DNA from: an uncultured candidate division Zixibacteria bacterium | GTDB taxonomy: Bacteria > Zixibacteria > MSB-5A5 > GN15 > FEB-12 | DNA length: 6,365 nt | Direction: 5' to 3' | NCBI GenBank assembly: GCA_913009765.1 | Contig: CAJVYT010000261.1 | Coordinates: 1-6,365 of the forward strand | Shown here: positions 149 through 6,285 of the stretch, piece after piece | Position numbering within the stretch: the stretch's first letter is position 1 | How the letters are laid out: every line of letters begins with the position of its first letter | Program-made: the position numbers and the translations under genes | Notes under the pieces: generated by a model | Seen by the model: only the letters and a program-made list of their open reading frames with translations | Database searches by the model: none | What the model was told of the DNA's origin: nothing

Positions 149-1414
149 TTATTGTTTTCCCTGCAGTATATCAAGCGGGCTTTCAGGCGCGTTTGTCATA
201 TCTCTCATGACATGAGTGTAAATCATGGTTGTCTCAACATTTTTATGCCCCAGCAATTGCTGAATCTCCCTTATATTCACACCGTTCATAAGAAGATGAG
301 TTGCAAAGCTATGCCTGAGAGTGTGTACTGAAGCATGTTTTGCGATCCCGGACTTCTTTAGCGCATTATTCATGGAGATCTGAATAGCCTTATCACTCTT
401 ATGATGACGTCTTATCTTCCTGCTCCGGGGATCAACAGAGAGATTGGATGAAGGAAACACATATTGCCAGTGCCACTGTTTTGAAGCCTGGGGGTATTTG
501 CGGTCAAGGGCATCGGGCATATAGACTTCACCGTGCCCTGCAGTAAGGTCTTCTTCGTGCAATTCTTTTACTTTCTCCAGGTGCAGCTTTAATTGTGACT
601 TAACAGATTCAGGCAGCATTGTTGATCTGTCCTTGTCGCCCTTGGCGTTTCTGACAATTATCAGATTTGAGCCAAAATCAACGTCTTTTACCCTCAGGCG
701 TGCGAGCTCCATAAGCCGAAGTCCTGAACCATATATCAACTTAAGAATGAGAAGATTTTCGCCTTTAATATGTTTGAAAAGTTCTTGAACTTCATCGACA
801 GTAAACACCACCGGCAATCTCTGGCCCCGCTTTGCTCTTACTGTTTTGTTCAGGTCTCGAAGCTCTATCTTCAGCACATGACGAAAAAGGAATATCAGGG
901 CATTGAATGCCTGGTTCTGCGTAGATGCGGCAACCCTCTTTTTCAGGGCAAGATGGCTTAGATAATCCCTTACGTCAGCAGAGTCCAAACCGGTATGTAA
1001 ATCTTTCTTCTTTAAATTTACAGTATAATCATAGAACCTTTCAGTCCAGTCTATGTATGAAAGCTCTGTCCGGTATGCATAATGCTTAATACGTAAAGCC
1101 TCCCGCATTTCTTCAATGATTTTGGAAACATCAGAAGGGATTACCGTTTCTAATTCCTCACCATCTAAAAATTGATTTGCAAATACTTGAACGGCATCAT
1201 CCGCCTGTCTGATCTGCCAGTCGGCAATGTTATTTTGTGCCTTCAAATAATTCAAAAACTTCTGAACCTGCAGATCGCGACTGAGATTTCTGTTACTCTC
1301 TGAAAAAGCCAAAAATTTGCTTGCCCAATGGACATAAAACGTGATATGCTTTTCGTTAACAAGGTTCTTTGAACGCAGATATTTCTGGAATTCAGGTAAA
1401 CTATTATTTTTCAT
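149..1414 (-). CDS. intI: integron integrase (tyrosine recombinase), with N-terminal extension
   Basis: This 421-aa recombinase inserts and excises cassettes by attI x attC and attC x attC recombination. The tyrosine-recombinase residues are all visible: R233 (GLR), K261 (GDKDR), H364 and R367 (HTLRH), H390 (LLGH) and nucleophile Y399 (IYTHV). The stretch at about 283-345 ([27 protein letters not shown]) is the extra segment that sets IntI apart from XerC/D and binds the folded attC hairpin. The core-binding domain lies at about 95-190. Residues 1-90 are an additional helical segment absent from IntI1 (337 aa). The start is supported by a GAGAGGGA Shine-Dalgarno (minus strand, 1421-1428) 6 nt upstream. 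The gene is divergent from the cassettes and intact, so it is probably functional. Confidence 0.96.
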
Positions 1415-4069: not shown

Positions 4070-4188
4070 TTAAATTTTGATAAATCAATAACCTTATGAA
4101 CTGGGCAAAATAATACTTTAGCTTTAGCATCAACAAATAATGCTTGTTTCTTTGGATAACACAAAGGACATATAGAAAACTTGCTCAT
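4057..4188 (-). CDS. minus-strand mini zinc-ribbon protein, fourth cassette
   Basis: This 43-aa reading frame runs against the array (MSKFSICPLCYPKKQALFV...). CPLC (C7, C10) and CPVH (C28, H31), 17 residues apart, form a plausible CxxC...CxxH zinc site. The start is supported by GGAGGT on the minus strand (complement of 4193-4198) four bases before the ATG. The longer minus-strand frame from 4254 was rejected because it overlaps the divergent gene and lacks this Shine-Dalgarno. Its last two codons (AAC GCC) and TGA stop read into the core of the upstream attC, so the C-terminus depends on the neighbouring cassette. Reverse-oriented genes are unusual in cassettes and would need their own promoter. 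Function unknown; could be nucleic-acid-binding. Confidence 0.5.
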   Translation of the reverse strand: MSKFSICPLCYPKKQALFVDAKAKVLFCPVHKVIDLSKFKHNA

Positions 4189-4192
4189 CTTA

Positions 4193-4205
4193 ACCTCCGG
4201 GAGGT
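4193..4205. promoter_or_regulatory. palindromic Shine-Dalgarno shared by two divergent genes
   Basis: ACCTCC-G-GGAGGT is a perfect 13-bp palindrome around G4199. Read rightward it gives GGAGGT four bases before ATG 4210; read leftward it gives GGAGGT four bases before the minus-strand ATG at 4188. The two start codons are thus symmetric about the centre. In either transcript the adjacent ACCTCC is identical to the ribosomal anti-Shine-Dalgarno and could pair with, and partly mask, the Shine-Dalgarno. Confidence 0.65.
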
Positions 4206-4209
4206 AAAT

Positions 4210-4437
4210 ATGAAAGACGTTAATTGCCACGCATGTAGCAAAGTTATGTACCAAATAGCTCCGATGGGGAAAGACACTTGGGGAATAGCATCAAAAGAAG
4301 GCCCCATTTTCATCACAGAAAAAGGAACAGAATACATTAAATGTCCACATCCACATTGTGGAGTGTTGCACACAATGATTGAATCTGATAGTTCTGCTGG
4401 TGGCTCTGTTATCCAAATTATGGGGTTAAAGAAATAA
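4210..4437 (+). CDS. plus-strand mini zinc-ribbon protein, fourth cassette
   Basis: This 75-aa protein has CHAC (C6, C9) and CPHPHC (C45, C50) plus H47/H49/H54, a likely zinc ribbon. Between them lies a beta-like stretch (TWGIASKEGPIFITEKGTEYIKC). No family is recognised. ATG 4210 was chosen over the upstream 4144 start because GGGAGG sits just before it and because the extra 22 codons overlap the minus-strand gene. It ends 5 nt before the cassette's own attC, typical of cassette genes. Its divergent partner is also a small zinc-ribbon protein, so the pair might act together, but that is inference. Confidence 0.72.
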   Translation: MKDVNCHACSKVMYQIAPMGKDTWGIASKEGPIFITEKGTEYIKCPHPHCGVLHTMIESDSSAGGSVIQIMGLKK

Positions 4438-4442
4438 AAGCC

Positions 4443-4497
4443 ACACAACCAGTCACTACAGCCCATGCGTACCGCAGGGCTGAGTCCTACGTTATGT
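4443..4497 (+). other. attC site of cassette 4 (55 bp, short type)
   Basis: R'' is ACACAAC (4443-4449) and R' is GTTATGT (4491-4497). CAGCCC (4459-4464) pairs with GGGCTG (4477-4482), and TGCG (4466-4469) with CGCA (4473-4476) around a TAC loop, leaving A4465 bulged. ACT (4455-4457) pairs with AGT (4483-4485), with A4458 bulged. This is a compact hairpin with two extrahelical bases, unlike the roughly 130-bp sites around it. Confidence 0.9.
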
Positions 4498-4505
4498 ATT
4501 AATAA

Positions 4506-4518
4506 ACAAAAAGGCATG
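4506..4518 (+). repeat. direct repeat left of the structured RNA
   Basis: ACAAAAAGGCATG directly precedes the closing stem of the RNA candidate. A near-identical copy with two extra A lies at 4800-4814. The pair may be a target duplication from insertion, or a flank copied by rearrangement. Confidence 0.45.
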
Positions 4519-4778
4519 GTGCACTCAGCGAGGGGAATGCCCCTCCAAAGGAGGTGTTTCGCCGTGATAAATAAAATCACGACGTACCTGAGGAGTGGCA
4601 GGGTGTATTGTTTTAGTTGGCTCGAATACTTTGGGTGTTCAGACTGGTGAAAGCAAATACCCACTGCTCGAAGACCAAGAGACAATACGGCGGCGGCAGT
4701 CGTAGCGGCGAGCTTCGATTGATTTACCAGTCGATTAACCGGAACACGACGCCCCTCTGCCTCCCTCGCTGAGTGTAC
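4519..4778 (+). ncRNA. structured RNA candidate, possibly HEARO/omega-RNA-like, fifth cassette
   Basis: There is no convincing protein gene here but strong nested pairing. A 16-bp closing stem (4519-4534 with 4763-4778) contains one G4521-U4776 wobble, which favours a plus-strand RNA. Inside it are GGGG-AATG-CCCC (4532-4543, sharing a few bases with the closing stem), and a stem AGGT/ACCT (4552-4555 with 4586-4589) capped by CGTGAT/ATCACG (4563-4568 with 4576-4581). A long interrupted hairpin follows: GTATTGT/ACAATAC (4605-4611 with 4682-4688), TTGG/CCAA, TCGA/TCGA and TGGGT/ACCCA (4632-4636 with 4659-4663). Its loop GACTGGT (4642-4648) can pair with ACCAGTC (4726-4732) as a pseudoknot. GGC-A-GTCGT (4695-4703) pairs with ACGACGCC (4746-4753). 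Size and style recall HEARO RNAs (omega RNAs of IscB), but no IscB or HNH gene is present. The family assignment is a guess; the fold is seen. Confidence 0.55.
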
Positions 4779-4799
4779 GATACCGATATTTAAAGTCGA

Positions 4800-4814
4800 A
4801 CAAAAAAAGGCATG
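4800..4814 (+). repeat. direct repeat right of the structured RNA
   Basis: AC, seven A, then GGCATG, followed by AAG. It matches 4506-4518 apart from the A-run length. It sits 21 nt after the closing stem and 8 nt before the attC of the same cassette. Confidence 0.45.
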
Positions 4815-4822
4815 AAGAACCC

Positions 4823-4951
4823 ACATAACCAGACAATGAATCGGATGCGTGCCACAGGACTCTTTTTTGATTTCAGAAGTTTTTTGTTTGTTATTAGCTT
4901 TTCTCATTTTATCCTTCTTTCTGGCACGCACCGCTTATTTTTACGTTATAC
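4823..4951 (+). other. attC site of cassette 5 (129 bp)
   Basis: R'' is ACATAAC (4823-4829) and R' is GTTATAC (4945-4951). TGCGTGCCA (4846-4854) pairs with TGGCACGCA (4922-4930). CGG (4842-4844) pairs with CCG (4931-4933), leaving A4845 bulged. The long loop is T-rich. It closes the cassette holding the RNA candidate and shows that this gene-less segment is a genuine cassette. Confidence 0.9.
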
Positions 4952-4972
4952 GTCTGATTATTAATAAATGAA

Positions 4973-5338
4973 ATGACAAAAGATGCTGATTGGTTTGATA
5001 AAGGGTACGATAGAGTATCTCAGTTTTTTGAAAAAATTATAGATAATGATTTTGCACGTCAATGGTTTCTTTGGATCGAATGGGTTACGTTAACTGCTGC
5101 ACTTTGGGCTATCGCTGAAAAATCTAACTCACTTATCGTTCGTATCGTAGCAATATTTTCAGCAATTATAGTATTCTTTCGAGCATGGATTAGTGTTGAA
5201 AGATTTGTAATTAAAATATTACCCAAGGCTAAAGAATTAAGTAAAGGCATTATTTGGGGAGGTTCATTATTAGTGGCACTTATTCCTTTTGTGTTAATTC
5301 ATTTTTTAGCAGAAATATTTAAAAGTATACTTGAATAA
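4973..5338 (+). CDS. small three-helix membrane protein, sixth cassette
   Basis: This 121-aa protein of unknown function has three likely transmembrane helices: about 31-48 (WFLWIEWVTLTAALWAIA), 54-74 (LIVRIVAIFSAIIVFFRAWIS) and 92-115 (GIIWGGSLLVALIPFVLIHFLAEIF). They are preceded by a charged N-terminal helix of 30 residues that probably stays in the cytoplasm. There is no signal peptide and no recognised motif. No Shine-Dalgarno precedes ATG 4973. Instead, a two-codon frame ATG-AAA-TGA (4968-4976) overlaps the start in an ATGA arrangement, which could allow re-initiation. The gene starts only 22 nt after the preceding attC, so translation may depend on upstream initiation. Confidence 0.72.
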   Translation: MTKDADWFDKGYDRVSQFFEKIIDNDFARQWFLWIEWVTLTAALWAIAEKSNSLIVRIVAIFSAIIVFFRAWISVERFVIKILPKAKELSKGIIWGGSLLVALIPFVLIHFLAEIFKSILE

Positions 5339-5345
5339 AATGATC

Positions 5346-5473
5346 GTATAACCTCCCACTGGACTTGAACGAGCTACCTGCGAGAGCTTTTTTAAATTTG
5401 TTTGTAGTTAATATTTTATGGTTTATTTAAGCCTTTACAAATACACCGTTCGTCAGTCAGCGGGGCGTTAGCC
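5346..5473 (+). other. attC site of cassette 6 (128 bp), last recognisable
   Basis: R'' is GTATAAC (5346-5352) and R' is GTTAGCC (5467-5473), with one base off consensus. GAACG (5367-5371) pairs with CGTTC (5447-5451), GACT (5362-5365) with AGTC (5455-5458), and CCC (5355-5357) with GGG (5463-5465). Pairing is weaker than in the other sites but has the expected layout. No further attC is found downstream in the window. Confidence 0.78.
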
Positions 5474-5483
5474 CAATAATTAA

Positions 5484-6054: not shown

Positions 6055-6285
6055 ATGCAAAAAAAGTTGACCATAACCATAGATGAGGAAGTTTATGAAG
6101 GTCTTCATAAGACCATCGCCCCCCGCAAGATCAGCAAATTTGTTGAGGAATTGGTACGCCCACACGTAGTTCGCCCAAATCTGGAATTGGCATACTCCAA
6201 AATGTCAAAAGACAAAAAGAGAGAAGCAGAAGCCCTGGATTGGGCAGAAACAACTTTTAAGGACATAGCGCATGAAAAGAGGTGA
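6055..6285 (+). CDS. ribbon-helix-helix antitoxin, MazE-like
   Basis: This 76-aa antitoxin partners the MazF-like toxin that follows. The N-terminus KLTITIDEEVYEGLHK...ISKFVEELVRPHV (about 4-38) fits a ribbon-helix-helix DNA-binding domain: a beta strand that contacts the operator, then two helices. The charged C-terminal part (about 45-76) probably wraps the toxin. A strong AAAGGAGG (6041-6048) lies 6 nt before ATG 6055. The gene has its own promoter and palindromic operator (6000-6036), so expression is independent of the integron promoter and probably autorepressed. It overlaps the toxin gene by 14 nt, indicating translational coupling. Toxin-antitoxin modules are known to stabilise large cassette arrays; here the module lies beyond the last visible attC. 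Confidence 0.85.
   Translation: MQKKLTITIDEEVYEGLHKTIAPRKISKFVEELVRPHVVRPNLELAYSKMSKDKKREAEALDWAETTFKDIAHEKR

Follow-up and report, generated by a model that had tools for sequence, protein, structure and literature searches.

Integron cassettes without an ORF have so far been explained as promoters or small regulators in the parts of the literature consulted here. In Xanthomonas campestris, ORF-less cassettes are said to encode regulatory RNAs (excerpts of PMC8876359), and promoter-carrying cassettes without a gene are known from Vibrio superintegrons (excerpts of PMC11014356, one section heading of which describes such cassette promoters as not identifiable in silico). Disputed aminoglycoside riboswitches in integrons are a further subject of this literature (PMC7588185, PMC9410878). 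Among the listed titles and abstract openings of open-licence papers, we found no large structured RNA reported as an integron cassette. The locus described here shares an attC site, the lack of a protein gene and a proposed RNA product with the X. campestris cassettes; compared by description with the same excerpts, it differs in the large size of the putative RNA, its covariation-supported helices and its pseudoknot. Like the Vibrio promoter cassettes, as excerpted, it is gene-less and lies in a chromosomal array, whereas here no sigma-70-like promoter was found and a conserved fold is present. Elaborate architecture and kissing interactions link it to the large ornate RNAs OLE, ROOL and GOLLD (excerpts of PMC12286853), but the element is shorter and has no Rfam match. 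Our best reading of the sequence is a new structured-RNA family of approximately 270 nt, carried as a cassette at least here.

The window, meaning the whole 6,365-nt stretch of DNA that was analysed, contains an integron comprising a tRNA-Phe, a minus-strand integrase and then plus-strand cassettes. The features that define the cassette of interest are:

49–124: tRNA-Phe, the sole ARAGORN find in the window
149–1414, minus strand: integron integrase IntI (TIGR02249 integrase_gron, 1.4e-123, 412 bits)
4440–4497: attC belonging to the upstream cassette and bounding the RNA cassette on its left (DNA fold of the bottom strand, z −3.40 at −13.2 kcal/mol)
4492–4945, plus strand: RNA cassette, crossover to crossover, between GTTATGT (4491–4497) and GTTATAC (4945–4951)
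4819–4949, core on to 4951: the RNA cassette's own attC (bottom-strand fold, z −2.27, paired ends)

Crossover at attC takes place after the G of GTTRRRY. The ends of the left attC, ACATAAC/GTTGTGT, are paired, and the inner stem of the right one is formed by GCGGTGCGTGCC and GGCACGCATCCG. Of the six proposed attC regions, five fold on the bottom strand into a long stem, their ends also paired (z −1.4 to −3.4), and the sixth, 5344–5474, shows no such fold (z −0.04). Flanked by attC sites and accompanied by an integron integrase, 4492–4945 has the make-up of an integron gene cassette, in agreement with the original prediction of a bona fide cassette.

Folding of 4490–4800 gave −119.4 kcal/mol for the plus strand (z −6.49) and −113.4 kcal/mol for the minus strand (z −6.56), which folds as well as the plus strand; neither value was matched by any of 100 shuffles. 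As background, 91 plus-strand segments of 270 nt across the 6,365-nt stretch, each with 40 shuffles, had a mean z of −0.54 (sd 1.14); these segments are too short for the element's 272 nt, and the two lowest (−3.5 at 4557 and −3.0 at 4423) overlap it only partly. The predicted architecture consists of a closing stem, P1, and three long arms joined by hardly any free linker:

4505–4518, plus strand: left copy of a direct repeat, AACAAAAAGGCATG (family D13), overlapping the outer P1 pairs
4513–4784, plus strand (presumed sense): conserved structured RNA element (z −6.5 and covariation in six relatives)
4519–4535, plus strand: 5′ arm of closing stem P1, with outer pairs from 4513; pairs with 4762–4778
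4538–4600, plus strand: branch A hairpin, refined register 4538–41/4597–600, 4543–46/4592–95, 4549–51/4587–89, 4554–58/4581–85 and 4564–68/4576–80
4605–4688, plus strand: branch B, a long interrupted stem with pseudoknot strand 1 (from the minimum-energy fold and pairing in relatives)
4642–4648, plus strand: pseudoknot strand 1, GACTGGT; pairs with 4726–4732
4689–4761, plus strand: branch C with pseudoknot strand 2 (76–86% of lettered cells paired)
4726–4732, plus strand: pseudoknot strand 2, ACCAGTC; pairs with 4642–4648
4762–4778, plus strand: 3′ arm of P1, with outer pairs to 4784 (93.8% of lettered cells paired)
4799–4814, plus strand: right copy of the direct repeat, AACAAAAAAAGGCATG, with two more A than the left copy

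P1 is 17 bp long, extended by four outer pairs, and contains G-U wobbles at 4521/4776 and 4535/4762; the closing stem and its wobble had thus been correctly predicted, with a length of 16 bp that is revised here. The inner pairing of branch C is the least certain part of the model, and an alternative hairpin within it (4690–94/4699–703) likewise fits the relatives. The element is flanked on both sides by the near-direct repeat AACAAAAA(AA)GGCATG, which also flanks a 22-nt inverted repeat (86%).

The relatives were reached through an antisense frame of 248 aa (4185–4931, minus strand) that is open through the element and has no Pfam match at E 0.1. A protein search with the antisense translation of 4512–4799 returned two predicted proteins besides the window's own, and a profile built from those returned four more; these relatives, P0002–P0007, matched at E 2.7e-46 to 3.8e-18; together with the protein of the window they make seven out of 4399 candidates with E up to 10. 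They come from sources labelled jgi, ena, ncbi and lgn, and none carries a precomputed Pfam domain. The longest contigs behind four of them measure 3.4 to 13 kb, against 1.1 kb for P0007 and 1.4 kb for P0003. The ORFs differ in their starts and ends, and similarity spans the element with little outside it. P0007 reads YWYRTLSEGG where the window reads YRYRTLSEGG in another frame, implying the same nucleotides across P1. With no common start or stop and one member in another frame, the relatives appear to be ORFs open by chance across a conserved element that does not code for protein. A scan of the relatives against NCBIfam gave no match, while Pfam, PHROGs and PADLOC gave weak matches in single relatives only (best E 0.023, 0.003 and 0.027, respectively); the match of P0002 to PHROG 33888 (E 0.003) found no support from tblastn in phages. 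That no reading frame here looks like a protein, as first proposed, agrees with these results, since the 248-aa frame, open as it is, behaves as a chance frame.

Covariation was assessed on these six relatives. They are known as amino acids only, so each residue was turned into a set of allowed bases and third codon positions stay mostly ambiguous. P0006 was cut after RYEVIFLI, the first residue of P0003 and P0005 was dropped, and for the first ten aligned residues of P0007 the shifted frame was used instead. The first test used the fold predicted before any relative was found, which is hence independent of them. Mean pairing was 0.579 over 515 cells, against 0.37–0.42 for slid partners and 0.570 for the best of 2000 shuffles (z 5.4). 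Among 32 cells with a certain two-sided change, 24 can still pair and eight cannot; 18 of the 24 pair with certainty, over 12 pairs, of which three lie in branch A, three in B and one in C, while the remaining five are P1 pairs with certain two-sided compensatory changes.

The refined structure, in which the register of branch A was adjusted, a local hairpin dropped and the pseudoknot added, was partly chosen on the same relatives; using certain bases only, it pairs 88.9% of 270 lettered cells, against 83.9 ± 1.0 in shuffles. Two-sided changes occur at 12 of 92 pairs (shuffles 5.8 ± 1.6) and in 17 cells (6.7 ± 2.0), and the covariation score is 0.074 (0.047 ± 0.005); none of 500 shuffles reached any of these four values. 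Slid versions of the structure gave 36.8–48.3% paired cells and 0–3 two-sided pairs. The count of ‘further pair types’ showed no excess over shuffles (140/500). By region, all seven two-sided changes in branch A (4549–4558/4581–4589) can pair; the lower part of branch B has 83.7% of lettered cells paired and 4632–4639/4656–4663 has 100%. Impossible cells number 4/90 in P1, 5/40 in the lower part of branch A (4538–4546/4592–4600), 8/60 in 4605–4614/4679–4688 of branch B, and 5/43 and 4/28 in 4695–4703/4746–4753 and 4689–4693/4757–4761 of branch C. Unbiased random back-translation of the relatives gave no consensus fold. Back-translation biased towards the window always recovered inner P1 and most of branch A but paired B and C differently; 42% of draws contained the pseudoknot. 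On back-translated bases, as opposed to DNA, the six relatives show compensatory changes on both sides of pairs in excess of the controls, the mark of a structured-RNA family. With matched mutations preserving the fold in these six distant relatives, a new family of structured RNA is the very probable identity of the element.

A 7-bp pseudoknot between 4642–4648 and 4726–4732 had been proposed from the window, where the complementarity is perfect, and it fits all six relatives. Pairing is possible in 42 of 42 back-translated cells of the six relatives, with U-G at 4648/4726 in five of the six in place of U-A. In the window's minimum-energy fold, a local hairpin (4715–4721/4728–4734) takes its place; this competitor is impossible at 4720/4729 in every relative, so that the pseudoknot fits six of six and the hairpin none. 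Two-sided covariation between the pseudoknot strands is absent, and the support is thus conservation plus wobble rather than proof.

Which strand is the sense strand is less clear. Determined G-U cells outnumber A-C cells by 15 to 12 in the refined helices and by 21 to 15 in the earlier ones, and two wobbles speak for the plus strand: the one in the pseudoknot, and G-U at 4637/4658, seen in three relatives. On this basis the plus strand is tentatively preferred, both strands folding equally well and the 15 to 12 balance being narrow. The earlier argument from a G-U wobble to a plus-strand RNA thus points in the right direction, resting on few wobble cells. No sigma-70-like promoter was found in 4380–5010 (shuffles give 1.0), nor was a local terminator. 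Within branches A and B (region 4547–4650, plus strand), an SD-like AAAGGAGG precedes a GTG-start frame of 28 codons (GTG at 4564), possibly a small peptide of a dual-function RNA.

Searches at the DNA level returned little. The element had no blastn match in plasmids, phages or E. coli, none in 230 genomes from the class of genome G001, and in eight integron-bearing genomes only matches of 16–25 nt in three of them (E 0.125 or worse). Across 80 integron loci, nhmmer gave three matches, with a best E of 0.22. A one-sequence covariance model (R1) found only the window itself in 81 sources and nothing in six genome sets (0/229, 0/40, 0/155, 0/285, 0/291 and 0/75). A second model (R2), built from the imputed relatives, was convincing only for the window in the 81 sources, with two others at E 4.6 and 4.8; in genome sets it matched 0/259, 0/198 and 1/188. 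The single match, on a contig (L212:102–247) of a genome (G1612) from the class of a Kiritimatiellota MAG, scored 25 bits (E 4e-4). Its GGCGGTCGCAG and TTTTGCCGATCGAACA resemble arm C and the rest does not; three of 11 modelled P1 pairs are broken, and only 11 bases stand in place of 85 model positions of arm B, so that we rejected it as a relative. One match of this kind is unsurprising given that 645 genomes were searched with R2. A six-frame search with A5 was negative in all 39 genomes (locus L055 left out). As these genome searches had no positive control, their emptiness shows little. In viral contigs, seven DNA patterns gave chance matches only, as judged by covariance model for all seven (best E 0.63) and for one of them by reading as well, and one protein-profile scan gave eight pattern matches, none of them a relative. 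The antisense frames had no tblastn match in plasmids and phages at E 1 and weak partial ones at E 10 (best E 0.2), and a 61-aa plus-strand frame used as a protein query had no match.

The window shows the element carried as a cassette, and one relative hints at the same. The 3′ flank of P0004 is compatible with window positions 4787–4828 at 31 of 42 positions, a value reached by four of 3000 shuffles, and the likeness reaches as far as the attC edge, the second direct repeat included. Of the nine flanks tested, all but that of P0004 were reached by 29 to 2727 of 3000 shuffles; the 5′ flank of P0007 is compatible with the left direct repeat at 25 of 36 positions (39/3000). The claim that the RNA is mobilised as a cassette is thus supported, as to its carriage, for the window, with an attC at either side, and for the relatives only as far as the P0004 flank.

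Among 4227 Rfam families searched at E up to 10 on both strands of 4480–4960, the sole match was LhrC, far under its gathering score; at loose thresholds, GNAS-AS1_3 was the only match besides tRNA and was again far under its gathering score. The models for HEARO (RF02033) and for group I and II introns were unmatched at E up to 10. Set aside were a tRNA or tmRNA, ARAGORN finding just the tRNA-Phe at 49–124, and a small inverted-repeat transposon, for which there is no target duplication beside the arms and no second copy was found. Of the two identities originally offered, an orphan HEARO/omega RNA finds no backing here, while a new class of cassette-borne RNA is supported by covariation of the fold in six relatives and by the lack of any matching family in Rfam.

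What such an RNA might do is a separate question. A trans-acting structural or particle RNA is probably the most economical reading, and the most likely one because the ends are tied off, the structure appears rigid and no gene is linked. In this reading, to which we give about even chances, the cassette would carry the gene for a free-standing RNA of approximately 270 nt with a four-way junction and a kiss between arms B and C. The plus strand would be transcribed from the array or by read-through; P1, at 17–21 bp, would join both ends and A, B and C would extend from it as arms, B and C kissing at their tips via the 7-bp pseudoknot, which would fix their geometry. The RNA would then associate with a protein of the host or of a mobile element and act in trans as the RNA component of the resulting particle; the integrase would move the cassette by its attC, and transcription would be supplied by the array. 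A broader proposal, that this kissing-loop junction RNA travels between bacteria as a protein-less integron cassette, much as genes do in ordinary cassettes, finds a host-supplied partner and possibly serves as defence cargo, is tentative, and we lean against it. A conserved, covarying RNA with tertiary structure as cargo would widen what integrons move and store, and would make a defined RNA available for testing. The way in which the relatives surfaced also indicates that RNA families missing from Rfam can come to light through ‘proteins’ predicted in public assemblies.

The main rival is a cis-acting leader or attenuator with its own small frame, tuning downstream cassettes as the structure opens and closes. 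Gene-less cassettes that drive downstream cassettes are documented (excerpts of PMC11014356), the SD-like AAAGGAGG ahead of a start-class codon lies inside branch A, and the first two bases of that codon fit ATG, GTG or TTG in all five relatives with data. However, a stop is forced at 4606 in P0002, the stop that ends the frame is missing in P0006 and P0007, and SD-like bases are certainly changed in P0002, P0003 and P0004. A complete attC also lies downstream, and the relatives' ORFs share no common downstream gene, all of which leaves a leader unlikely. The equal folding of both strands and the near balance of G-U and A-C cells (15 to 12), together with the resemblance of the 22-nt, 86% inverted repeat and near-direct repeat to a small element, could instead mean that the functional form is folded single-stranded DNA serving as a recombination, replication or transposition site. 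The long arms and kissing pseudoknot fit this poorly, the U-G at 4648/4726 in five of six relatives would be mismatched if read on the opposite strand, and no target-site duplication lies directly beside the inverted repeat; we consider a DNA site quite unlikely.

Less probable still are readings that borrow from known systems. HEARO/omega RNAs of IscB/IsrB are, like this element, large structured RNAs on mobile DNA, and standalone omega RNAs exist. A large junction RNA with a pseudoknot could be an orphan guide-type RNA, HEARO/omega-like or of another nuclease, with its protein elsewhere in the genome. This seems very unlikely given that the HEARO covariance model is unmatched, no guide segment was identified and no IscB/IsrB-type nuclease gene is present among the eight proteins of the window. 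An RNA of a defence-associated reverse transcriptase (DRT/retron type) parted from its enzyme strikes us as highly improbable. In its favour, residues 27–49 of P0006, adjoining the element relative, include YVRFVDDI, which we take to be reverse-transcriptase motif-C-like (PADLOC Drt3a, E 0.027), and P1 plus hairpins presumably resembles the retron a1/a2 layout. The Drt3a match, on the other hand, covers 23 residues at 11.9 bits and may be due to chance (six proteins against 5027 models), there is no PDB sequence match, and no reverse transcriptase is encoded among seven cassette and flank proteins of the window. A retron proper was rejected, as the AGC that we assume to be branch-point-like sits inside P1. 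DRT/retron non-coding RNAs are likewise structured and plausible defence cargo, but the ACACAC template carried by the DRT3 RNA (excerpts of PMC13174585) is absent from the element, and no reverse transcriptase was found in the window. Finally, a real antisense protein gene kept in six relatives, with the stems as a by-product, would explain why all six keep the frame open across most of the element and mostly free of indels (the exceptions being two insertions in P0006 and the frame change in P0007). The protein search, however, can return open-frame relatives only, termini differ among them, P0007 shifts frame, and two-sided compensatory changes occur in P1 arms more than 220 nt apart, which makes such a gene extremely improbable.

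Elsewhere in the integron, the best full-length relative of the integrase among the best 80 of 572 is 70% identical and comes from a Nitrospiraceae MAG (bin1476, L001); shorter segments, also among the best 80 of 572, are 75% and 77% identical in Thermodesulfovibrionia and Deltaproteobacteria MAGs (L016 and L078). Downstream of the array, 6055–6285 has a weak match to a MazE-type antitoxin (NF050104, E 0.00075, under its cut-off). The cassette next to the RNA cassette, 4973–5338, encodes a 121-aa protein with a sub-threshold match to SLATT_1 (E 0.044), which could possibly be a membrane effector.
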